Positions 23,250 through 48,156 of a stretch of DNA of 48,156 bases are shown here, piece by piece. Numbering within the stretch: position 1 is the first letter of the stretch; each line of letters starts with the position of its first letter. Both the position numbers and the translations under genes were made by a program. The stretch covers positions 1 through 48,156 of IMG/VR virus record IMGVR_UViG_3300045973_000083. One strand, given 5' to 3'. Source of the DNA: a virus. The notes under the pieces were generated by a model. It searched no databases and was not told the origin of the DNA. It saw only the letters and a list, made by a program, of their open reading frames with translations.

Positions 23250-24845
23250 TTATTTTTTTTCATTTAGTAAATTATATTCCCATCTAATGTGACCACAATC
23301 GTAAATTCGATATATTTTACGATCAAACATAATTTCTCGTTCACTTTTGGTTTTATCAAACCCTTCTTTTATTAATATTGATTTCCGGAAGTTGAATCGA
23401 TAATATCTTAAACCATTTATTACATACCAATAATTTGGCTTTGATTGTGATTTTTCAATAAATCCTAATGAATTATACATTTTTCCATTAAAAAGTCTAA
23501 TATCCGAATATGAAATAACCCTCTGGGGAGTATATTTTTTCACAAAATATTTAAATAACTTACTAGATGCTCCGATTATGTTTGTATTAATTTTATTTAC
23601 AAACCGGTTTAGTTCCCACTCATCTTCTTTTCCTCCCATTATAACTCTACCTTTGGAAAAAGTCATTAACGATACCAATTCGTTTTTAAAAAATAACCCG
23701 AGTCTTACTTTTGAATTAACATTACCTTGAATGTGATTTTCATTTAAGAATTTTTTAGAAATCTCCGAAGAAACCTCATTAATTATACATTTTCTACCAA
23801 AAATAGTATTATCAGTTTTATTCAATCTATATTTGATAATAGATTTAATAATTTCAGATTTTTTTACCCATTCGTCTTCAAATATGTGAATTAATTCAAT
23901 GTTTTTTTCATTACATCTAATTGTCTTTTTTAAATGATAATCTGGGGTAACAAATAATTCATTATGCCAATAATTTCCATTAACTTCAATTCCTAATTTA
24001 TTATCCGGAATGTAAATGTCGATTTCTTGATTATTTTCCATAATTTTAGAAGATGGGGTATAAATTACGGATAATTCATTTAAAAAATTCCCAATTTCAT
24101 GTTCATATCCACTTCTAAATGATTGTCCTATTGGATTGCAGTGAGTACAAGAATCATAATTTCGTTTTTCTCGTTCGTATAATAATTGCTTAGTAATTTC
24201 AGATTCATTACCACATTTTTTACATTTTATTTTGACGATCAATTTTCCAATGTCAATAAAATTAATATTAGGATGTAATGTTTTATACTTCGATATTATT
24301 TTATTTTTATATGTGTTGGATGTTGAATAATTATCTGAATTGTATCGGTTTTGACAGGTTATTTTATATTTTTCAATGTTAACATAATTTTCATTACCGT
24401 ATTTTTCCAATCTAGTCTTTTTACTTTTTTCTATGTTAACAAAATTTTCGTCACCATATCTTTCCATTTTTGTCTTTTTCTGTTTTTTAATAAAATCGGG
24501 ATGTTCTGGATAAAAATCAACACCATATTTTTTATTAAATGTTTCTTTTTGTCGTTTCGTCATCTCTTCTTTATTTTCATTAATACATTTTAAAGAGCAA
24601 AAATTACCATATGGTTTATCAAATCGATTTCTAAAATTAATTTCATTACCACATGTAACACATTTTGGCCTTTCGGTTAATTTATTAAAATAAAACCAAA
24701 TTTTTTCTTTAAAATTCATTACTAAATTAAAATTGTTTGAATATTCAATGATATTACAATGTAATTCAGGGTAATTTTTTGAAATCCATATTTCATTTGT
24801 TTTATATCCAGATTTATTATCTGTGGTAAAAAAAGAAAATTCCAT
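23250..24845 (-). CDS. Free-standing homing endonuclease, Vsr-like (EDxHD) type
   Basis: This 531-residue protein looks like a mobile endonuclease rather than a virion part. The N-terminal part has zinc-binding pairs (CVTCGNEI and FCSLKC, about residues 62-85), and the middle carries repeated Y-G-(D/N)-E-N-(F/Y)-V-N-I-E-K segments (about 130-160) of the kind that contact DNA. A second zinc set is CKKCGNES and CTHC. The nuclease core (about 250-320) shows SGYEHEIGNFLNEL, EIDIYIPDNKLGIEVNGNYW and H, then IELIHIFEDEW, a Vsr-like PD-(D/E)xK arrangement known from the I-Bth0305I group. It is inserted between the tube gene and the gp26-like gene and has its own late motif 14 nt upstream. It is likely functional: there is no stop or frameshift. 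Confidence 0.82.
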   Translation of the reverse strand: MEFSFFTTDNKSGYKTNEIWISKNYPELHCNIIEYSNNFNLVMNFKEKIWFYFNKLTERPKCVTCGNEINFRNRFDKPYGNFCSLKCINENKEEMTKRQKETFNKKYGVDFYPEHPDFIKKQKKTKMERYGDENFVNIEKSKKTRLEKYGNENYVNIEKYKITCQNRYNSDNYSTSNTYKNKIISKYKTLHPNINFIDIGKLIVKIKCKKCGNESEITKQLLYEREKRNYDSCTHCNPIGQSFRSGYEHEIGNFLNELSVIYTPSSKIMENNQEIDIYIPDNKLGIEVNGNYWHNELFVTPDYHLKKTIRCNEKNIELIHIFEDEWVKKSEIIKSIIKYRLNKTDNTIFGRKCIINEVSSEISKKFLNENHIQGNVNSKVRLGLFFKNELVSLMTFSKGRVIMGGKEDEWELNRFVNKINTNIIGASSKLFKYFVKKYTPQRVISYSDIRLFNGKMYNSLGFIEKSQSKPNYWYVINGLRYYRFNFRKSILIKEGFDKTKSEREIMFDRKIYRIYDCGHIRWEYNLLNEKK

Positions 24846-39991: not shown

Positions 39992-41941
39992 TTAGGCGGT
40001 TCTAACATCAAACCCCATATTGGCTAATGCTGTTCTTGCCGCAATTCCGTTATATCCCCCACTTGTGGCGTCTGGTGGAAAATTTCCAGTTAAGTCAATT
40101 TTTCTAAAATTATATCCCGATGTTGATATTGTTACAAAATCAGTTAATATATGGTTAACACTTTCAGTTGAAAAATTATTATGAGATAAATCATATGTGC
40201 ATGGATCTCCTACCCCGGGAGCATCACCACTTCGATTAGTTAAATTAGGAAACATCTTCACATCAAAATAATCTGGTTTAATTTTATGAATTTGTAAAAA
40301 AGTTAATGGTGAATCGTTTGATAATCCCTCGATGGTTTCCAATAATTGACAATCTTTTATTATAATGGTATGATCGTAAATTGATGTACCACTTTGAACA
40401 ATATGTATTACCGGTAACGATGTTAGTTCCAATCTATGTACTCTACCCATACTTGGTAATTTTACCACCTCAATATTCTCACAATACCAAATTTGTATTT
40501 TATTATCAACATATTCTGAAAGTATCATTGATGACATATCAACTTCTTTTAGATTTAATACGTTGTATAAATGAAAGTCAAACCCCAAATCAGAATTGGC
40601 GGTATCCGGTAATCTTAATGTAGAAAAATCTGAAAATGCAATATCCAAATGGTTAATATTAACAAATTGGCTAACATCTAATGTGTTAATTATGTTTAGA
40701 TAATATAAATCTAATGAATATAATGATTCTGATGTATTTGTACCATTCGAGAAAAAATTAACTCTAAATTTAATTGGGTATTCTTCCCTAGTAGTTCCAG
40801 AAAATATTGGATATTGAACATGAATTAATGGATGGAACGGATCATACGTATATCGATAAATTAAACTACCATTATCATTAGTAACCCCGATTTGAGGAAA
40901 CGGAAACATTGAATATATTGGAATTGCACCACCTCCGGGCTCAATCCAACCATTTCCAATTTCGGTTGGAGTGTATTGATGAGTAAAACCTGTATCATTC
41001 ATGAAATATAGTTCTACGAACCCCCAATCTTCCATACCTTCAAACGATAACATTGGTTTGACAACATAGGTAAAGAACGGATATAAATCCGAACATGGTT
41101 CATAACATTCAGTAATATCATAATGTAATTTAGCGTCAAGATAACTATTCCGAACTAGAAGATATGATAATGGCTCTTCATAATACATTATTCGTTTGAT
41201 ATTAAAACCTGATACTCCACGATGTATTTCACCGGATCCAGTTGTTCCACCCCCAATAACTTGTATAATAGGATTTAATGACGCTCGTACCGTTGGAATA
41301 ATTTCTTCCCAATTAATTATTTTATAAAATAGTCTACCATTTAAGTAAAATTTAAGAGTACCCATTCTCATTTCACTTTCCTTTAACCATTTTTCACCTA
41401 ATTGATCAACTAAAGTAAACTCTTCAGTATCCCCGGTTACAACCCCGTAGGGGTTTGTTACTGTGTATCCCGTAATTTGATCGTTTAATCCCCCTTGATT
41501 CTCTATATCACAATCATAAAACGATCTATCTCTCTCAAACGTAATTGTTAAATTAAAATCGGTTGATGTACCAGATGAGCATAAAACCGGTGTAGATCCT
41601 GATGTTAGTATATATTCTTCGGTGTATCCTGATACTGTATCACAATATTCATTATATCTATATGATTTCCAATTTATTTCTCCGTCATTAGTAAATGAGA
41701 ATGAAAGATTATTATCTAAATAAAAAAATGGATTTAGTTCATCTTTTATACCCCAATAATAAAATGTTTTACCAGAATTCCATGTTAATGATTCTTTATT
41801 TATAATATAGTCTAATGTCCATCCTTTTTCGGTTCTAGGTCTTATCGTGACAATTTCGTCATCAATTGTTATTCCGGTATTAATATTAAATTCTAATGGA
41901 TTGGTAATATTTTCAATATTATAAAGAGGGGTAATTAGCAT
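39992..41941 (-). CDS. Large adhesin-like tail protein with leucine-rich-repeat-like C-terminus
   Basis: This 649-residue protein is likely a receptor-binding or decorating tail protein. The N-terminal half (about 1-250) is beta-rich, with two similar Ser/Thr-rich loops (SGYTEEYILTSGS and TGDTEEFTLVDQL) and a laminin-G-like core containing MGTLKFYLNGRLFYKIINWE. The region from about 425 to the end has irregular leucine-rich repeats (for example HLDIAFSDFSTLRLPDT, LYNVLNLKEVDMSSM, VVKLPSMGRVHRLELTSLP), ending NFRKIDLTGNFPPDATSGGY then GIAARTALANMGFDVRTA, a cap often seen at the end of phage LRR proteins. It follows the APS kinase gene and precedes the BppU-like gene. A late motif lies 11 nt upstream. 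Confidence 0.72.
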   Translation of the reverse strand: MLITPLYNIENITNPLEFNINTGITIDDEIVTIRPRTEKGWTLDYIINKESLTWNSGKTFYYWGIKDELNPFFYLDNNLSFSFTNDGEINWKSYRYNEYCDTVSGYTEEYILTSGSTPVLCSSGTSTDFNLTITFERDRSFYDCDIENQGGLNDQITGYTVTNPYGVVTGDTEEFTLVDQLGEKWLKESEMRMGTLKFYLNGRLFYKIINWEEIIPTVRASLNPIIQVIGGGTTGSGEIHRGVSGFNIKRIMYYEEPLSYLLVRNSYLDAKLHYDITECYEPCSDLYPFFTYVVKPMLSFEGMEDWGFVELYFMNDTGFTHQYTPTEIGNGWIEPGGGAIPIYSMFPFPQIGVTNDNGSLIYRYTYDPFHPLIHVQYPIFSGTTREEYPIKFRVNFFSNGTNTSESLYSLDLYYLNIINTLDVSQFVNINHLDIAFSDFSTLRLPDTANSDLGFDFHLYNVLNLKEVDMSSMILSEYVDNKIQIWYCENIEVVKLPSMGRVHRLELTSLPVIHIVQSGTSIYDHTIIIKDCQLLETIEGLSNDSPLTFLQIHKIKPDYFDVKMFPNLTNRSGDAPGVGDPCTYDLSHNNFSTESVNHILTDFVTISTSGYNFRKIDLTGNFPPDATSGGYNGIAARTALANMGFDVRTA

Positions 41942-42004: not shown

Positions 42005-42436
42005 CTAATATTTCTCAATTTTTTCCAATAATTCTTTTAATGAATCTAATTCAGATATATTTGTGGTGTTTATATCTATATATTTTTTTTGGGGAGGTTG
42101 ATAATTTTGGACATGAAAATTTTCTCTACCTCGAATATCATCTGTATGAACATATATTTCTATCACATCGTTATCATTTTTAAATTTTTCTCTTTGATCT
42201 TCATACGGTGAAACTAATGATACAATTACGTTAAATCCCTTAGATTTTAAAAATATTGATATATCCTGTGCTTTTTGAATATTTATTCGTCTACCGTTCT
42301 CTGAATAGTCTTTATTCTTAAATATATCTCTTATATCGTCGCCATCAATATGAATGACATTTGAAATATACTTTTCTAAAAGTTTAGCTAATGTAGTTTT
42401 TCCTGCTGCAGGTTGACCAGTAAACCAATAAATCAT
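42005..42436 (-). CDS. cysC: Adenylylsulfate (APS) kinase-like protein
   Basis: This 143-residue P-loop kinase matches the APS kinase pattern: Walker A GQPAAGKTT (7-15), IDGDDIRDIF (30-39) as in the D-G-D-x-(V/I)-R motif, SENGRRINI (45-53), and SLVSPYEDQRE (73-83), where APS kinases have F-I-S-P-Y. The terminal part YQPPQKKYIDINTT replaces the usual YEAPENPELVI. It would phosphorylate APS to PAPS, the donor for sulfotransferases. It is shorter than typical CysC (about 200 aa), with a shortened lid region. It overlaps the preceding DUF2061 gene by 4 nt (ATGA). A generic nucleotide or polynucleotide kinase is the main alternative. Confidence 0.72.
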   Translation of the reverse strand: MIYWFTGQPAAGKTTLAKLLEKYISNVIHIDGDDIRDIFKNKDYSENGRRINIQKAQDISIFLKSKGFNVIVSLVSPYEDQREKFKNDNDVIEIYVHTDDIRGRENFHVQNYQPPQKKYIDINTTNISELDSLKELLEKIEKY

Positions 42437-42639
42437 TCTTTACCCCATTTAATTTTATTCCATAATCTTTCGTGAAAAATATAAAGAACAAACCTAATAC
42501 CATTAAACCAACCGGATATCAATAAGCTTTCTGTCCATAATCCGGTGAAACTATATGAAATTATACCTAGTATAATAAACCCGCTTATTCTCCAACACAA
42601 TGATTTAACGGCTGACCTAATTAATGTTTCATTAATCAT
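42433..42639 (-). CDS. DUF2061 membrane protein
   Basis: This is a 68-residue membrane protein with two likely helices, ISGFIILGIISYSFTG (18-33) and SLLISGWFNGIRFVLYIFH (about 38-56). The DUF2061 signature is clear: RSAVKSLCWRISG at the start and LYIFHERLWNKIKWG at the end. The function of the family is unknown. From memory, DUF2061 genes often neighbour APS kinase or sulfate-activation genes in marine bacteria; here the gene is coupled to the APS kinase by a 4-nt overlap, which supports a joint role. It would sit in the inner membrane of the infected cell. Confidence 0.82.
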   Translation of the reverse strand: MINETLIRSAVKSLCWRISGFIILGIISYSFTGLWTESLLISGWFNGIRFVLYIFHERLWNKIKWGKE

Positions 42640-42650
42640 ATAATTTTTTA

Positions 42651-43109
42651 TTATGGTTTATTTTCAATTGTTATTACACCAGCAAGTTGATCGATTAAAT
42701 TCTGATGCTCCGGTAAAATTTCATTACAATAACAATATAACATTTCATTTTTATTTACTATCGGGAGATTATTTATTCTAAACCAAACTTCAAATTGTGG
42801 ATATTCTAATACTAACGAAACTGGGGTAACAATTCTTTTTATAAATTCAGAATATGTCCAATCTGTTGGTTGAACAAATAAGGCATCTTGATCTTTATTT
42901 TTAATTAAGTATATATATTTCCAAGTAAGTACAGAACTTTTTTTATAAATAAGAATAGTTCTTTCGTTAATACTATCATTCACTTCAACCATAACATTAG
43001 CATCTGATGTTTCTAATGATTCATTAATTCCCACCACATTTCCCGAAATAAATGTTCCGTTTTTACATAATTCAATTAAATATTGAATAACTTCATCTTC
43101 AAATCTCAT
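42651..43109 (-). CDS. Hypothetical protein in glycan cassette
   Basis: This 152-residue protein has no recognised family or catalytic motif. It is a mixed alpha/beta sequence: an N-terminal helix (EDEVIQYLIELCKNG), a beta region with the acidic segment EVNDSINERTILIYKKSS, then DWTYSEFIKRIVTP and a C-terminal part with two cysteines (CYCNE). It lies 11 nt upstream of DUF2061 and 21 nt downstream of a glycosyltransferase, so a role in the cassette is likely. It has no signal peptide or membrane segment. Confidence 0.7.
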   Translation of the reverse strand: MRFEDEVIQYLIELCKNGTFISGNVVGINESLETSDANVMVEVNDSINERTILIYKKSSVLTWKYIYLIKNKDQDALFVQPTDWTYSEFIKRIVTPVSLVLEYPQFEVWFRINNLPIVNKNEMLYCYCNEILPEHQNLIDQLAGVITIENKP

Positions 43110-43130
43110 ATCTTTAAATTATTTTAGTTT

Positions 43131-43973
43131 TTAATAACTGTATATTAAATTAATATTATTGTTATTTATATTTTTAGAGAATATTTTGTTGTTTTCTCTA
43201 ATTATTAGTATTTTTTCTGGTATATAATTCCATTCTTCTAATTTAGTTATAAATAATTCTTCATTTTTAACAATGGAATCAAACATATAAATATTATTAC
43301 CCCCAGTCTTATTATTAACATGATATGTTATTGCCATAGGATTAACCAATAATTCATATCCTTTTCGAAATATAGAATGTGTAAAAACCGTGTCTTCTCT
43401 ATGCCCGGCAGGAGAAAATTCTAAAGAATATGTTTTAATTAATTTTGTGTTGAATAGATAATTACTATATAAATGTTCACATTTTTTAATTGATTTATCT
43501 TGTCCTCCACAAAATTGTATATTAAAATGTGAAAAAATGTTACTTAAATCGTTAAAAATTATTGTTTCTTCCGATAATCTATTTTTATCTTGTTCGCAAC
43601 AAAAAATTAGACCAGAAATCGCGCCAGTTTTCTCATTTACTGAATTAGATAATAGTTCTAAAACATTATATTCTAATATATTATCATCATCAATTTTATA
43701 TAACCAATCTGTTTCACAATTATCTAATGCTATTTGTTGTGCATATACTTGGCCTTTCGATTCTCCGTGATAATATGAGAATTTAATATTTTTCAACTTC
43801 ATGAGTTTTAAAATAATTTTAAAAATTTCTATATCATAAAATTCTTTTTTTTCATTATCATCAACTAAAATTATTTCATATGGTAATAAAGTTTGATTTA
43901 TTACTGATAACATAGTTAACGATAATGTAGTGTGGTATCTATTTTTAGTTGTTATTGATACTGTAATTTTCAT
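43131..43973 (-). CDS. Family 2 glycosyltransferase (GT-A)
   Basis: This 280-residue GT2 enzyme transfers a sugar from a nucleotide donor. The N-terminus VSITTKNR and IILVDDNE (34-41) form the nucleotide-binding strands; DDDN (95-98) is the metal-binding acidic motif; GAISGLIFC is the acceptor strand; and AGHREDTVFTHSIFRKGYE (about 189-207) has the ED catalytic-base region typical of the family. No membrane helix is present. It overlaps the preceding glycosyltransferase-like gene by 29 nt. The donor and acceptor are unknown. Confidence 0.85.
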   Translation of the reverse strand: MKITVSITTKNRYHTTLSLTMLSVINQTLLPYEIILVDDNEKKEFYDIEIFKIILKLMKLKNIKFSYYHGESKGQVYAQQIALDNCETDWLYKIDDDNILEYNVLELLSNSVNEKTGAISGLIFCCEQDKNRLSEETIIFNDLSNIFSHFNIQFCGGQDKSIKKCEHLYSNYLFNTKLIKTYSLEFSPAGHREDTVFTHSIFRKGYELLVNPMAITYHVNNKTGGNNIYMFDSIVKNEELFITKLEEWNYIPEKILIIRENNKIFSKNINNNNINLIYSY

Positions 43974-44592
43974 ATTTCTTTATAACTTCCTTACATTTAT
44001 TTATAAATTGATATTCATAAATTTTTAAATTTGGATGCTTGTAATATCTACCAAGTTCAAATTGATGATATAACCAATCTTCATATGTTGTACCATTTCC
44101 GAAAAATTTATCTCCACACTTCCATTTTTTATTTAATGACTTTTTAATGTTAAATAGTTTCACGTTTACGTTTTTATCAATAGACGAAAATGTGAATTCA
44201 CCGGCAGTATCGGATCTATATGTGGGTTTAAAAGATGGTTTTTCTAATTTATTAAACACATCTTTTGTTATACCAAAACATGAGGGGCCAGCATAAATTC
44301 CTTCTTTTTTCATATTACATTGTTCAACGCCCAAAATGGAATTATTATCCGATAATTTGTCAATAATATAGGAATATAAATTTGGATTAAGTGGTATACA
44401 GTCTATATCAAAAAAAACTAAAATATCAAAATCGATGTTATTAATTTTTTGGTCTAGGTATTCGGGATGATCAATTTCTGTATATTCCTGAATTAGATTC
44501 ATTCCAAATAAATCAAATACCATTTTTTGATATTTTACAATATTTTCAGAAATATTATTTTGATAACACGTAAAAGCTTGAATTTTAGACAT
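43945..44592 (-). CDS. GT-A-type glycosyltransferase-like protein
   Basis: This 215-residue protein has the DxD motif of GT-A enzymes in ILVFFDIDCIPL (D62, D64), preceded by a beta-alpha repeat and followed by IYAGPSCFGITKDVF (a strand-helix seen at the acceptor site). The pattern resembles nucleotide-diphospho-sugar transferases that act on small or protein-bound glycans, but the family is not fixed. The later segment GNGTTYEDWLYHQFELGRYY contains a conserved-looking E-D-W. The end overlaps the next GT2 gene by 29 nt and the start lies 4 nt after the methyltransferase-like gene. Confidence 0.68.
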   Translation of the reverse strand: MSKIQAFTCYQNNISENIVKYQKMVFDLFGMNLIQEYTEIDHPEYLDQKINNIDFDILVFFDIDCIPLNPNLYSYIIDKLSDNNSILGVEQCNMKKEGIYAGPSCFGITKDVFNKLEKPSFKPTYRSDTAGEFTFSSIDKNVNVKLFNIKKSLNKKWKCGDKFFGNGTTYEDWLYHQFELGRYYKHPNLKIYEYQFINKCKEVIKKYENYSINNN

Positions 44593-44596
44593 TTTA

Positions 44597-45136
44597 TTAA
44601 TAGTAATTATTATCTTTTATCACATTGATTTTTTTCTTTAATGATACTATTCCTTGTCCATCCGTTAATTGTTCAATAACATCATAATATTTTTCAACTA
44701 ATTGATAATCCGGTCTATTATAATCATGAATCATAACAATTACATTTTCGTCTATCATATCATATATTGATTTTGCACAATATTTTCTAGCTCTACCGTC
44801 AATAAAAACTTTTGTAAATTTTACATTATTATTTTTAGGAAATTCAACATAATCTTTAAATTGTTCGTATCTGCAAGGAATTGGATCTGGAGTATGAGAT
44901 GGTATATAATTTAATTCAATGTTTGGTATGTTATATGTATTTATACCTATTTGAATATTATTAATCCAATCATTATCATGTTCAATAGATATAATCTTTG
45001 TCACTAAATCTGAAAAATATAACGTACTATTACCTGATCCCCATTCCAATAAAATATCATTTTTATTTAAATATTTTTCAATAAATTCATATTCGTGTTT
45101 ATGCATTAATGGGGTGAAAAATCCGTATTTATTCAT
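44597..45136 (-). CDS. Methyltransferase-like protein (paralogue 2)
   Basis: This 179-residue protein shows the class I SAM-methyltransferase nucleotide motif LLEWGSGNSTLYFSDLV (about 29-45), followed by IISIEHDNDW where the acidic residue after strand 2 binds the cofactor ribose. FIDGRARKYCAKSI and IVMIHDYNRPDY are the later strands. It is about 45% identical by eye to the gene immediately upstream, so the pair is a tandem duplication. It could O-methylate a sugar or be an adjunct without methylation. It overlaps its paralogue by 8 nt. The fold is assigned by motif only. Confidence 0.65.
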   Translation of the reverse strand: MNKYGFFTPLMHKHEYEFIEKYLNKNDILLEWGSGNSTLYFSDLVTKIISIEHDNDWINNIQIGINTYNIPNIELNYIPSHTPDPIPCRYEQFKDYVEFPKNNNVKFTKVFIDGRARKYCAKSIYDMIDENVIVMIHDYNRPDYQLVEKYYDVIEQLTDGQGIVSLKKKINVIKDNNYY

Positions 45137-45656
45137 TATTTTTTTTTATTTTTAATGCAACAATTCCCATATTTTCGTGGGATGACAGTTGTTTTATTAT
45201 ACTATAATTTTCTAAAATTTCCTGATATTTTTTATTATTAAAATCATGTACAAAAACTATAGTATTCTCATTTATTATATTAACAATAGATTTTGCACAA
45301 AAATTTCTTGCCTCACCATCTATTAAAACCTTGGTAAATTTTATATTATTATTTTTTGGATATTCAATATAATCAATAAATTTTCCATATTCAGTTAAAT
45401 TATCATTTGGCGGAATGAAAATTTGTTTAATATTTGTTATACCATATCCATTTTTCACTTTTTCCACAAAATCATAATATTTTTTATGATGTTCTATTGT
45501 AATAACTTTTTTAACTAATCCTGACCAATATATTGTAGAATTTCCTGATCCCCATTCCAATAAAATATCATCGTCATTTAAAAAATTAGAAATAAATTCA
45601 CATTCGTCATTATACATCAACGGTATAAATGAATCAAATTTATTCTTTATTATCAT
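45129..45656 (-). CDS. Methyltransferase-like protein (paralogue 1)
   Basis: The frame opens at 45737, but I place the start at 45656 (MIIKNKFDSFIPLM, 175 aa) because the longer version lies inside the preceding gene and lacks counterpart sequence in the paralogue. The core LLEWGSGNSTIYWSGLVKK and VITIEHHKKYYDF matches paralogue 2, as do LIDGEARNFCAKSI and IVFVHDFNNKKY. As with its twin, a SAM-dependent sugar methyltransferase is the best guess. It overlaps the GT8-GT9 fusion by 17 nt. Confidence 0.65.
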   Translation of the reverse strand: MIIKNKFDSFIPLMYNDECEFISNFLNDDDILLEWGSGNSTIYWSGLVKKVITIEHHKKYYDFVEKVKNGYGITNIKQIFIPPNDNLTEYGKFIDYIEYPKNNNIKFTKVLIDGEARNFCAKSIVNIINENTIVFVHDFNNKKYQEILENYSIIKQLSSHENMGIVALKIKKNNE

Positions 45657-47241
45657 ATATGTCAAAAATTTCATTAACAACCGTATCAACATCAGGTAGA
45701 TAATCATACATAGTTTTTCCTGATGGAATGGTATCAATAGTATCTGGATATGATTCCGTATGTCTAATTTCTAAATCATCTAATAGTAATTTTTTATATA
45801 AAACCTTTGTTTTATAATTTTGAGTACCATTCCTAAATGGAATCATATGATCAGGATGTTTACATGTTGGTATTGTTACTAACCAATTATCAAATGCTCC
45901 GGCAATATGTACTGGTGAACTATCATTCGTTAATGTAACTTTTGATAAAGAAATTAACGCAATCATTTCACCTAATGATGTTAAATCTCTAAAATCTATT
46001 CCATCTTTAGGACAAGTTATTGGTAAAAATCCTTGTTTATCGTCAATTGTCTTACCAATTATTCCAACACAAAGTTTTTCCGATAATTTATCGACAACTT
46101 CTTGCCACCACTCAATTGGAAATGTTTTAGATGGCCACCATTTTCCGGGATGAACTAAAACTAATTTTTTATCTGTCGGTTTTTCTCTCGTCATATCGAT
46201 TATTGTGGACACATCTTCGATATCAACTTTTATTTTAATTGTTTTTTCAATGTTTGGTATTGTTCTCTTAATCATTGACATTGAAGCAAAATCTGTTGGG
46301 TGAAATAAAACGTGGGACAAATGATGTTCAGATTTATCATCATCTGGACAGGTATACATAGTTAAAATAGCTTCTGGTGATCCAGTCCAATCATCATATT
46401 TTAAAACTGGTAAATCTAAATGTTCAAACAATCTTGGAAAATGCGTTACAACAAACATATTAGCATCTGGATATAATTTTTGTGTAAATCTAATAACTGG
46501 TTCTGAGCATAATTGATCTCCCATTCCTGCAGTAACAGATATAAGGATGTTTCTTTTATAATCATATTCCGGAGAGTCGGATTTCCATTGTTCAATATCT
46601 TTTTTTAAAACATCAATAATAATTTCTTGTGGAGCTCCAGCATAATGTACGACATATGAATCTAATCTTGATATTCCTAAAAATTTATCCAATATGTCCA
46701 TTCTATTAAATTTATAATTCAAATCAAACATGGAAACTTTATCATTAGTAATTCTAAGATTTATATATGGTTGATCGGTTTCAACAAAATTAATACCTTT
46801 TGGTATTTTAAAAATTTGTTTATGTATTCTTGATATAACCATTACGCCAGAATTATAAAATTTTCCGTTCCATTCTTTTACTGGTTCTTTATAATATTCT
46901 GATGCTTGTTCGAGAAATTCGCCACGTGGAGTATATTGACCTTCATTAAACATTCCTAATTTATTTTCAGGGACGATATCAAAAAGATTTGGTGTATCTT
47001 CCCTAACGATTAAATCTATATCCAGATATATGATTCTTTTATATTTATTTAAAAGTTCATAGATATAAAATTTATTCCATTTTTGTGTAATGTAATCTTT
47101 ATTGAATTCTGAAATGTTTAAAAAATCGGCCCCTATTTTTTTTGCGTATTTTTTAATTGATGGTAATGTGTGTGACGATAATTCTTCATAATACTTACCA
47201 ATTGAAATAGTTAACACTAAATTTTCTTTATTAATACTCAT
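45640..47241 (-). CDS. GT8-GT9 glycosyltransferase fusion
   Basis: This 533-residue protein has two glycosyltransferase folds. Residues 1 to about 215 look like a GT8/GT-A enzyme: IIYLDIDLIVRED (70-82, DxD), GKFYNSGVMVIS (126-137) and HYAG (199-202), the family order. Residues about 230 to 470 look like a GT9 / heptosyltransferase GT-B enzyme: LISVTAGMGDQLCSEPVI, LVLVHPGKWWPSKTFPIEWW (360-379) and LTNDSSPVHIAGAF (437-450). The remaining tail is short and helical. A single protein could add two sugars in succession. Position 45640 ends just inside the next gene. The start follows an AT-only hairpin (TATTATATT with AATATAATA) and has no Shine-Dalgarno sequence. Confidence 0.82.
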   Translation of the reverse strand: MSINKENLVLTISIGKYYEELSSHTLPSIKKYAKKIGADFLNISEFNKDYITQKWNKFYIYELLNKYKRIIYLDIDLIVREDTPNLFDIVPENKLGMFNEGQYTPRGEFLEQASEYYKEPVKEWNGKFYNSGVMVISRIHKQIFKIPKGINFVETDQPYINLRITNDKVSMFDLNYKFNRMDILDKFLGISRLDSYVVHYAGAPQEIIIDVLKKDIEQWKSDSPEYDYKRNILISVTAGMGDQLCSEPVIRFTQKLYPDANMFVVTHFPRLFEHLDLPVLKYDDWTGSPEAILTMYTCPDDDKSEHHLSHVLFHPTDFASMSMIKRTIPNIEKTIKIKVDIEDVSTIIDMTREKPTDKKLVLVHPGKWWPSKTFPIEWWQEVVDKLSEKLCVGIIGKTIDDKQGFLPITCPKDGIDFRDLTSLGEMIALISLSKVTLTNDSSPVHIAGAFDNWLVTIPTCKHPDHMIPFRNGTQNYKTKVLYKKLLLDDLEIRHTESYPDTIDTIPSGKTMYDYLPDVDTVVNEIFDIYDNKE

Positions 47242-47302
47242 ATTATATTTTTTTATTAATATAATATTTTTTTTTGTAAAAGTCTAATGTTTTTGAAAAA
47301 AA

Positions 47303-48019
47303 TTATAAATAATTATTAATTTTTAAAATTAATTCATCGTTCATAAAATTTACAAATCCTCCGGATATTCCTTTTCCGGGATTAAAATTTGGAAGTTTTT
47401 TACAATTTATGTCAGGTATACTATTTCCTATTTTTTTACCTATATAATTCTCGATTATTAATTTTTGATTATTAAAATCCGATAATAAATCTTCATAGTT
47501 TAATACTAATATATTATCTTTATATTTTAACCAACCTTCTGTGTGCAATTTCCATCTTTCTATATAATTGTTTGGTTCAATAATAACATGAGGATCCGGA
47601 TAATCGGCAAAGAATTTATAACCAATTTCTTTTGGATTTGAAAATATCCATTCTTTTAATGTTGGAAAATTTGGTATAGGATTTAATTCATTATCCGCAT
47701 TTAAAAATCTATGATAACTTACTAATACATCTTTAATATCTCTTTTCAAATAAATAACATTATATTTATCAAATAAAAAATCCATATATGGTAAGATAAA
47801 TTCTACTTGATGATGTGATTTAGATACTGAATTTTCCAGATAAGTATTTACTATAATATCTTTATATGTTTGGTGTTTATAATTATCTAATATAAATTTT
47901 TCGGTTGGATTCATATAACCAATTGTTAGAAAATCTCCATTTTTATCATAATTAATTAAATTAATTAATAGATGCGTTCCTGAACGTTCATGCGTTATCA
48001 CTATTATTGGTTTTTTCAT
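47303..48019 (-). CDS. Sulfotransferase
   Basis: This 238-residue protein is a PAPS-dependent sulfotransferase. The 5'-phosphosulfate loop is THERSGTHLLIN (9-20), the catalytic His region is SKSHHQVEFILP (66-77), where His69 is the likely base, and the 3'-phosphate motif is IYLKRDIKDVLVSYHRF (89-105) with R93 and S101. The later NYIERWKLHTEGWLKYKDNI and VLNYEDLLSD match the family. The terminal KGISGGFVNF supplies the usual PAPS loop. The acceptor is not known, but five glycosyltransferase or methyltransferase genes follow it, so a glycan is likely. The gene lies 61 nt upstream of the GT fusion and 19 nt after an RCC1-type gene. Confidence 0.87.
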   Translation of the reverse strand: MKKPIIVITHERSGTHLLINLINYDKNGDFLTIGYMNPTEKFILDNYKHQTYKDIIVNTYLENSVSKSHHQVEFILPYMDFLFDKYNVIYLKRDIKDVLVSYHRFLNADNELNPIPNFPTLKEWIFSNPKEIGYKFFADYPDPHVIIEPNNYIERWKLHTEGWLKYKDNILVLNYEDLLSDFNNQKLIIENYIGKKIGNSIPDINCKKLPNFNPGKGISGGFVNFMNDELILKINNYL

Positions 48020-48035
48020 GTTATAATAAAAAGTT

Positions 48036-48043
48036 TATTTATA
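48036..48043 (-). promoter_or_regulatory. Possible late promoter TATAAATA upstream of sulfotransferase
   Basis: On the minus strand this reads TATAAATA, the T4 late consensus, ending 16 nt before the sulfotransferase ATG. It overlaps the stop of the RCC1-type gene. The other late motifs of the window read ATATTTAT instead. Confidence 0.35.
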
Positions 48044-48156
48044 TTGTTGTAATCATTACTGGCGTCGTTCGGTATGGAAAATCATTATTACCTAATTGAC
48101 CATTAAAACCATATCCCCAACCCCATACTTTTCCATTATCATCTATTCCTATTGTT
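48039..48156 (-). CDS. Partial RCC1-repeat protein (C-terminal end)
   Basis: Only the last 38 residues are in the window. They read TIGIDDNGKVWGWGYGFNGQ then LGNNDFPYRTTPVMITTI and stop. The pattern (D-G-x-V-W-x-W-G-x-G-x-x-G-Q-L-G-N, then P-x-x-(V/I)) is one RCC1 blade, so the gene probably encodes a beta-propeller of RCC1 repeats. Such propellers occur in some phage tail or structural proteins, so an adhesin is plausible. It is next to the sulfotransferase and the glycan cassette. The 5' part, and therefore any domain beyond the propeller, is outside the window. Confidence 0.7.
   Translation of the reverse strand, partial: TIGIDDNGKVWGWGYGFNGQLGNNDFPYRTTPVMITTI

Follow-up and report, generated by a model that had tools for sequence, protein, structure and literature searches.

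A viral gene block joins an APS kinase–DUF2061 pair to an RCC1-linked glycan cassette with a sulfotransferase

A nine-gene block combines two recurring viral modules

The IMG/VR record IMGVR_UViG_3300045973_000083, a virus sequence that we analyzed over its whole length of 48,156 bp (hereafter the window), carries on its minus strand a block of nine genes (42005–48019) that joins two recurring modules. One is a glycan cassette in which the gene for an RCC1 propeller protein is followed by a GT8/GT9 glycosyltransferase gene, a methyltransferase-like (MT) gene and, optionally, a sulfotransferase gene; the other is a pair of genes for an adenosine 5′-phosphosulfate (APS) kinase and a DUF2061 protein. 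Our reading, to which we give an even chance, is that the products of the block build a glycan, sulfated and probably methylated, on tail adhesins of the phage itself, most likely on the RCC1 propeller protein encoded upstream, which is probably part of the tail.

The nine genes form a single packed run with intergenic gaps of only −29 to +61 bp, indicating an operon-like organisation. The G+C content of the block (24–26% versus about 31% in the remainder of the window) suggests that it was imported. On the question, raised by an earlier sequence-only reading of this DNA, of whether relatives lack the cassette, the answer is divided: the complete nine-gene block was not found in any relative, whereas each half recurs widely. 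In the window both modules lie together beside the protein encoded at 39992–41941 and the family B DNA polymerase (PolB) gene. The corresponding site of PolB-clade relatives holds tail-fibre-like and other open reading frames (ORFs) and none of the block genes, and in the four PolB-clade members that have the kinase it lies far from PolB. Thus, rather than being inherited within the clade, the block was probably put together and inserted at this site. The collection scans used here sample by conserved peptides, and counts of relatives are lower bounds; the IMG/VR records searched are in part fragments, and the sequence sets are related to one another.

The block and its flanks comprise the following features. 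PAPS is 3′-phosphoadenosine 5′-phosphosulfate; loci of relatives are cited by L numbers.

48042–48155, minus strand: C-terminal (last) repeat of an RCC1-propeller gene truncated by the contig end (Pfam RCC1, E=4.3e-6); relatives have a gene of this type immediately before the cassette
47303–48019, minus strand: PAPS-dependent sulfotransferase (Sulfotransfer_1), 238 aa (Pfam, E=4.9e-14; conserved PAPS motifs)
45640–47241, minus strand: fused GT8-GT9 glycosyltransferase of 533 aa, encoded by the core gene of the RCC1 cassette (Pfam Glyco_transf_8, E=2.1e-9, and Glyco_transf_9, E=1.3e-9, in one ORF)
45129–45656, minus strand: methyltransferase-like paralogue a (51% identity to paralogue b; ATG start at 45656)
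44597–45136, minus strand: methyltransferase-like paralogue b, located after GT8/GT9 in most relatives (relatives 46–83% identical; PDB 3cvo, E=5e-4)
43945–44592, minus strand: DxD-type glycosyltransferase-like protein, the second GT-A enzyme (DxD motif; cassettes of this type elsewhere encode 57%-identical relatives)
43131–43973, minus strand: GT2 family glycosyltransferase (Pfam Glycos_transf_2, E=2.2e-13; 46%-identical relatives in the same cassette)
42651–43109, minus strand: 152-aa cassette protein without a family (35%-identical relative after GTx in the cassette of L257)
42433–42639, minus strand: small DUF2061 membrane protein (Pfam, E=3.1e-10; in 35/36 kinase-bearing virus records)
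42005–42436, minus strand: lid-less APS kinase, a short CysC (Pfam APS_kinase, E=1.8e-16; 4-bp overlap with the DUF2061 gene)
39992–41941, minus strand: flanking protein; in relatives the locus is variable and includes tail-fibre-like ORFs (counterparts near PolB in 32 loci of the PolB clade)

The calls for the sulfotransferase, GT8-GT9 fusion, GT2 enzyme, DUF2061 protein and APS kinase all exceed the Pfam gathering cut-offs, whereas Pfam searches gave no match for the DxD protein, the two methyltransferase-like paralogues, the 152-aa protein or the flanking protein at 39992–41941. All genes named by the sequence-only reading are present on the minus strand where it had placed them, and its APS kinase-like gene, the DUF2061 gene coupled to it, the sulfotransferase with both PAPS motifs and the GT8-GT9 fusion were borne out. 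Other labels held in part. Of the two proposed GT-A enzymes, Pfam supports the GT2 protein, while for the second the assignment comes from its DxD motif and its relatives; the methyltransferase-like genes are indeed paralogues, but their label is weak, as a PDB search returned a single methyltransferase-like match (E=5e-4); and of the two putative flanking adhesins the RCC1 repeat was recovered, while the ‘LRR-like’ (leucine-rich repeat) character of the other found no Pfam support. The alignment of the paralogues favours the ATG at 45656 as the start of paralogue a, and the TTG start at 45737 is probably wrong.

The kinase belongs to a lid-less APS kinase subfamily

Profile, PDB and fold searches all group the window kinase with APS kinases. 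It scores 61 bits against a Pfam APS_kinase cut-off of 21.1, and the first 24 solved sequences in a PDB profile search are APS kinases or fused enzymes, ahead of other kinases. Its AlphaFold model has a mean pLDDT (predicted local distance difference test) of 92, and every one of the 50 matches listed by Foldseek is an APS kinase or a fusion enzyme with that domain, with TM scores of about 0.8 on the query. Alignment to Escherichia coli CysC showed that the P-loop and the DGD..R, S..(D/G)R..N and SP..R motifs are retained, whereas the lid segment containing DPKGLYKKAR is missing from the kinase and from the whole short subfamily. NCBIfam models of APS kinases match as well, but below the apsK cut-off (TIGR00455, 60.9 bits versus 138.7). 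Because of the missing lid and the unreached cut-off we name it a lid-less APS-kinase-like subfamily rather than a canonical CysC.

A public genome scan located the short subfamily also in metagenome-assembled genomes (MAGs) of Flavobacteriales, Verrucomicrobia and others. In Flavobacteriales the kinase lies within cysC-DUF2061-cysD-cysN operons, whose CysD-type and CysN-type proteins we checked by Pfam. This operon context is good evidence of a contextual kind that the kinase acts on APS and that DUF2061 is part of sulfate activation, and conversion of APS to PAPS by the phage enzyme is the activity predicted from its sequence, its fold and these cellular operons.

Four relatives (L208:10001-10801, L211:4294-5094, L218:10001-10801 and L221:10001-10801) are short APS kinases with a C-terminal, HAD-type-looking extension carrying a DFDGVIH motif, and sit in cysDN operons of the Crocinitomicaceae type. 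L218 is labelled Euryarchaeota yet has the Flavobacteriales operon, and is probably mis-binned.

Kinase, nucleotidyltransferase and DUF2061 form a viral module

Of 364 IMG/VR stretches encoding viral relatives of the kinase, 80 environmental ones were kept (about 58–69% identical), which together with the window give 81 loci. A small nucleotidyltransferase (NTase) is encoded in 78 and DUF2061 in 77 of them, and at the level of whole records DUF2061 was absent from all eight that lack the kinase (0/8). The DUF2061 protein of the window itself reaches 40.8 bits (Pfam cut-off 23.1).

The NTase family, of about 120 aa, is encoded directly after the kinase in L002-L081 (e.g., L008:10432-10809), has HxGH and ISGT-type motifs and resembles NadM. 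From these sequence features and its position it may be a small (minimal) ATP sulfurylase. No Pfam ATP sulfurylase was detected above cut-off in the records searched; sub-threshold matches coincide with the NTase positions, and the best-scoring single NTase protein reached 23.4 bits against a cut-off of 24.3. A 256-aa ORF in a Bacteroidetes MAG (L227:6148-6918) fuses a lid-less APS kinase to the NTase, a natural link of the two activities. A scan of 395 Bacteroidota genomes for the NTase was empty, but as it had no positive control this is no proof of absence. Tentatively, we propose a possible phage route from sulfate to PAPS, in which large environmental phages would use a new minimal ATP sulfurylase of ∼120 residues with a NadM-like HxGH fold, the lid-less APS kinase and DUF2061 as a membrane helper to sulfate the glycans of their tail adhesins; in the window, the kinase–DUF2061 part of this route would be joined to the RCC1 cassette.

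A CysC-like CDP-phosphoramidate kinase has been reported from Campylobacter, and the enzyme of the window might likewise phosphorylate a substrate other than APS, so that the block would make a differently decorated sugar. The missing DPKGLYKKAR segment, the scores below the apsK cut-offs and the NadM-like nature of the usual viral partner fit such a function. We nevertheless regard it as very unlikely, since all APS-pocket motifs apart from the lid are retained and the lid-less subfamily occurs in cysC-DUF2061-cysD-cysN operons, where APS is the expected substrate.

In L008-L034 and L051-L081, large viral modification islands adjoin the kinase–NTase–DUF2061 trio; they encode NodU-type carbamoyltransferases and tryptophan-halogenase-like, 2-oxoglutarate–Fe(II) (2OG-Fe(II)) oxygenase, radical-SAM-like and glycosyltransferase-like proteins.

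Different sulfotransferases accompany the kinase pair

The window sulfotransferase scores 52.8 bits against a Sulfotransfer_1 cut-off of 22. Its 5′-phosphosulfate-binding (5′-PSB) loop, catalytic histidine and 3′-phosphate-binding motif are all present and kept in every close relative, with the THERSGTHLL, KSHH and KR..DVL.SY motifs invariant across relatives that are 57–68% identical. Single-sequence scans with this protein or with DUF2061 gave no matches and were outperformed by a scan with a sulfotransferase alignment and by Pfam searches of whole records. INPHARED yielded no relative of either protein and only weak matches to the kinase.

In 17 of the 80 viral kinase loci, which dereplicate to nine sequences, the kinase–DUF2061 pair is accompanied by a second sulfotransferase, often adjoining tail-fibre-like or sheath genes. 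Typically, a tail-fibre-like repeat protein is followed by an optional GT9, the sulfotransferase, kinase, NTase, DUF2061 and a GT9; in several cases tail sheath genes come next, with the sheath assignment checked by Pfam. Profile comparison gave no match between the window sulfotransferase and that of the kinase loci, indicating that two different sulfotransferases appear to have been joined to the same pair. In line with this association, Sulfotransfer_1 exceeds its cut-off in 12/33 kinase-bearing records (11 beside the kinase) versus 0/43 records of the window PolB clade, and Sulfotransfer_3 in 12/36 versus 0/43. Fisher's test for 12/33 versus 0/39 gives 2e-5; given relatedness among the records and the difference between the clades, this value overstates independence. 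The window kinase branches in its tree with those of L002, L005 and L007, loci that bear the sulfotransferase–kinase cassette (support 86/92). Short kinases of Verrucomicrobia also lie near sulfotransferase genes (above cut-off in L226 and L229, weak in L222).

These contexts bear on the published interpretation of phage cysC. In freshwater, the gene is found in large phages, is transcribed in lakes and has been read as serving assimilatory sulfate reduction (COBRA study, PMC10914622), and the kinase of the window could accordingly be an auxiliary metabolic gene for cysteine supply during infection. We consider this highly improbable here. CysH- or CysD-type genes above cut-off were present in 0/36 kinase-bearing records, some of which may be fragments, making a role in cysteine synthesis unlikely, whereas sulfotransferases are enriched in these records. 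The claim of the sequence-only reading that sulfation is a purpose and not a by-product thus gains support from both the recurrence of the pair with a second, unrelated sulfotransferase and the absence of CysH/CysD.

Three protein clusters were set aside. Cluster 45, a large protein beside some cassettes, was rejected as an adhesin, being a fused FkbM methyltransferase and glycosyltransferases; clusters 29 (hhalign probability 61, modest profile support) and 19 (next to no profile support) were left out of the sulfotransferase counts. In L004:4145-8488 and L007:4145-8488, a 1447-aa protein combining FkbM methyltransferase, DXD sugar transferase, GT1-type and GT9 domains (Pfam) adjoins the sulfotransferase–kinase cassette.

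The RCC1 glycan cassette recurs without the kinase

A scan with the methyltransferase-like protein revealed two gene orders: in L235-L240, RCC1–GT8/GT9–GT2–GTx–sulfotransferase–MT, and in several of L241-L250, RCC1–sulfotransferase–GT8/GT9–MT. The set was widened by scans with the sulfotransferase alignment and with GT8/GT9, which has 37 viral relatives, most of them 72–77% identical. Among the 52 cassette loci, some of which overlap on the same contig, GT8/GT9 is encoded in 51, a methyltransferase-like protein in 43, an RCC1-type protein in 43 and a sulfotransferase match in 21. The core cassette is RCC1–GT8/GT9–MT, with the sulfotransferase and further glycosyltransferases as optional members.

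Of 16 non-redundant GT8/GT9 orthologues (at least 70% identity), 14 are immediately preceded by an RCC1 gene, with a spacing of 42–99 bp or with the sulfotransferase in between; the remaining two lie on a 5-kb fragment and in a locus with a different large protein upstream. RCC1-type genes, called by motif count with three examples checked by Pfam, occur in 0/160 other viral loci. Thus, a glycosyltransferase gene fixed beside an adhesin-like gene, as expected of a virion-glycosylation cassette, is seen in 14/16 GT8/GT9 orthologues. Because this order persists across very different contigs, the RCC1 protein is the likeliest carrier of the glycan. The flanking genes vary between cassette loci, suggesting that the cassette is mobile.

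In L257 (509-724), a short ORF just upstream of the sulfotransferase resembles the zinc-ribbon end of TnpB/OrfB and is a possible trace of cassette movement.

Neither kinase nor DUF2061 is encoded in any of the 52 cassette loci, and a search of 14 fragmentary RCC1-cassette records found APS kinase in 0/14. Glycosylation of the RCC1 adhesin could therefore be real while the APS kinase and DUF2061 travel along independently, in some other role, and the sulfotransferase draws on PAPS of the host, an explanation also compatible with the many kinase loci that have no clear sulfotransferase nearby. We consider it unlikely: the pair lies within the same operon-like run of the window, 17 other loci combine the pair with an unrelated sulfotransferase, and the short kinases of Verrucomicrobia similarly occur near sulfotransferases.

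Proposed pathway and its target

In the pathway that we favour, the host would supply APS and the lid-less kinase of the phage would convert it to PAPS, with DUF2061, consistently associated with the kinase, presumably aiding sulfate activation. The GT8-GT9 fusion, encoded next to the RCC1 gene, would attach a sugar to the RCC1 protein and extend it, the GT2 and DxD proteins would lengthen it and the methyltransferase-like paralogues would cap it. The sulfotransferase, whose motifs are those of a PAPS-dependent enzyme, would then transfer sulfate from PAPS to this glycan. Hosts that reduce APS directly make little or no PAPS, so that a phage in need of a sulfotransferase would gain from an APS kinase of its own.

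Several points weigh against this pathway. A clear sulfotransferase is missing from the surroundings of most kinase loci, and the same sulfotransferase as in the window occurs in RCC1 cassettes without the kinase, indicating that a phage-made donor is not strictly required. The window has DUF2061 but no NTase or other candidate ATP sulfurylase. The place of the RCC1 protein in the virion and the sulfated product are both predicted from the genes alone, and the GT9 domain is closest to lipopolysaccharide heptosyltransferases, which would fit a target on the host surface as well.

In the main rival explanation, it is the host surface (lipopolysaccharide or capsule) that receives the sulfated sugar, so that receptors are masked and other phages excluded. 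Besides the GT9 domain, the GT2 enzyme, closest to exopolysaccharide enzymes, agrees with such a target, and sulfated capsules of marine bacteria, made with sulfotransferase and APS-kinase genes, are described (e.g., PMC11641403). However, genes for a flippase, a polymerase or a lipid-carrier enzyme are absent from the block, an RCC1 gene precedes the cassette core in 14/16 cases, and the other kinase–sulfotransferase cassettes are flanked by tail-fibre-like and sheath genes, leaving us to regard a host-surface target as rather unlikely. The sequence-only reading had named both targets; the RCC1 and tail-fibre/sheath adjacency favours virion fibres over host-surface masking. Two of the three findings that it had named as refuting did not materialise: the kinase falls with APS kinases, and the sulfotransferase retains its PAPS-binding motifs. 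Its observation is thus confirmed and its interpretation partly supported.

Relation to known systems

As an auxiliary gene, phage cysC has been described before; its setting in sulfation appears to be new, as do the RCC1 cassette and the candidate minimal ATP sulfurylase. The cysC/cysH phages of the COBRA study (PMC10914622), which are large freshwater phages, share with the window an APS kinase gene, but they were given an assimilatory reading, and the main text mentions neither sulfotransferase nor DUF2061. The cysC-DUF2061-cysD-cysN operon of Flavobacteriales MAGs shares with the phages the lid-less kinase subfamily next to DUF2061; in contrast, the phages lack CysD/CysN and usually have the small NTase, along with sulfotransferases and glycosyltransferases.

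Glycosyltransferases of freshwater jumbo phages have been described (PMC12619734), as has virion glycosylation in mycobacteriophages (Freeman et al. 2023, via PMC12619734). In the latter, compared by description only, phage-encoded glycosyltransferases reportedly decorate virion proteins. Heptosyltransferases of the AAH/TibC type modify bacterial autotransporter adhesins. Again by description only, they resemble the RCC1 cassette in that a dedicated glycosyltransferase gene lies beside a large repeat adhesin gene; unlike it, they are bacterial. We know of no GT8 fusion, methylation or sulfation in AAH/TibC-type systems, and, to our knowledge, neither sulfation nor PAPS supply nor an RCC1 pairing is part of mycobacteriophage virion glycosylation. 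The statement of the sequence-only reading that no phage system of this composition is described agrees with our literature search, which covered few subscription papers and returned no study of a phage sulfotransferase or phage sulfation and nothing linking DUF2061 to sulfate.

If the tentative sulfate-to-PAPS route is true, part of the phage cysC catalogued for cysteine synthesis would be sulfation machinery. Should phage cysC feed sulfotransferases, a widespread auxiliary gene would change its meaning, and phages would sulfate their own adhesins, of which we found no description. The RCC1–GT8/GT9 pairing offers a testable enzyme–substrate pair, and the kinase–NTase–DUF2061 trio hints at a function for DUF2061 and contains a candidate minimal ATP sulfurylase.

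Genome setting

The 48156-bp record is probably a fragment of a viral genome. It belongs to a myovirus with a bacterial host and encodes a tail sheath, UvsX, a DnaB-type helicase, ribonucleotide reductase and PolB. One IMG/VR scan returned 85 relatives of this PolB, about 70–77% identical, on contigs of up to 269 kb, among which the gene order PolB–helicase–sheath is kept. Amid the conserved structural genes of the window lies an ORF resembling homing/HNH endonucleases (23250–24845, minus strand; PHROG 3339, E=2e-107).

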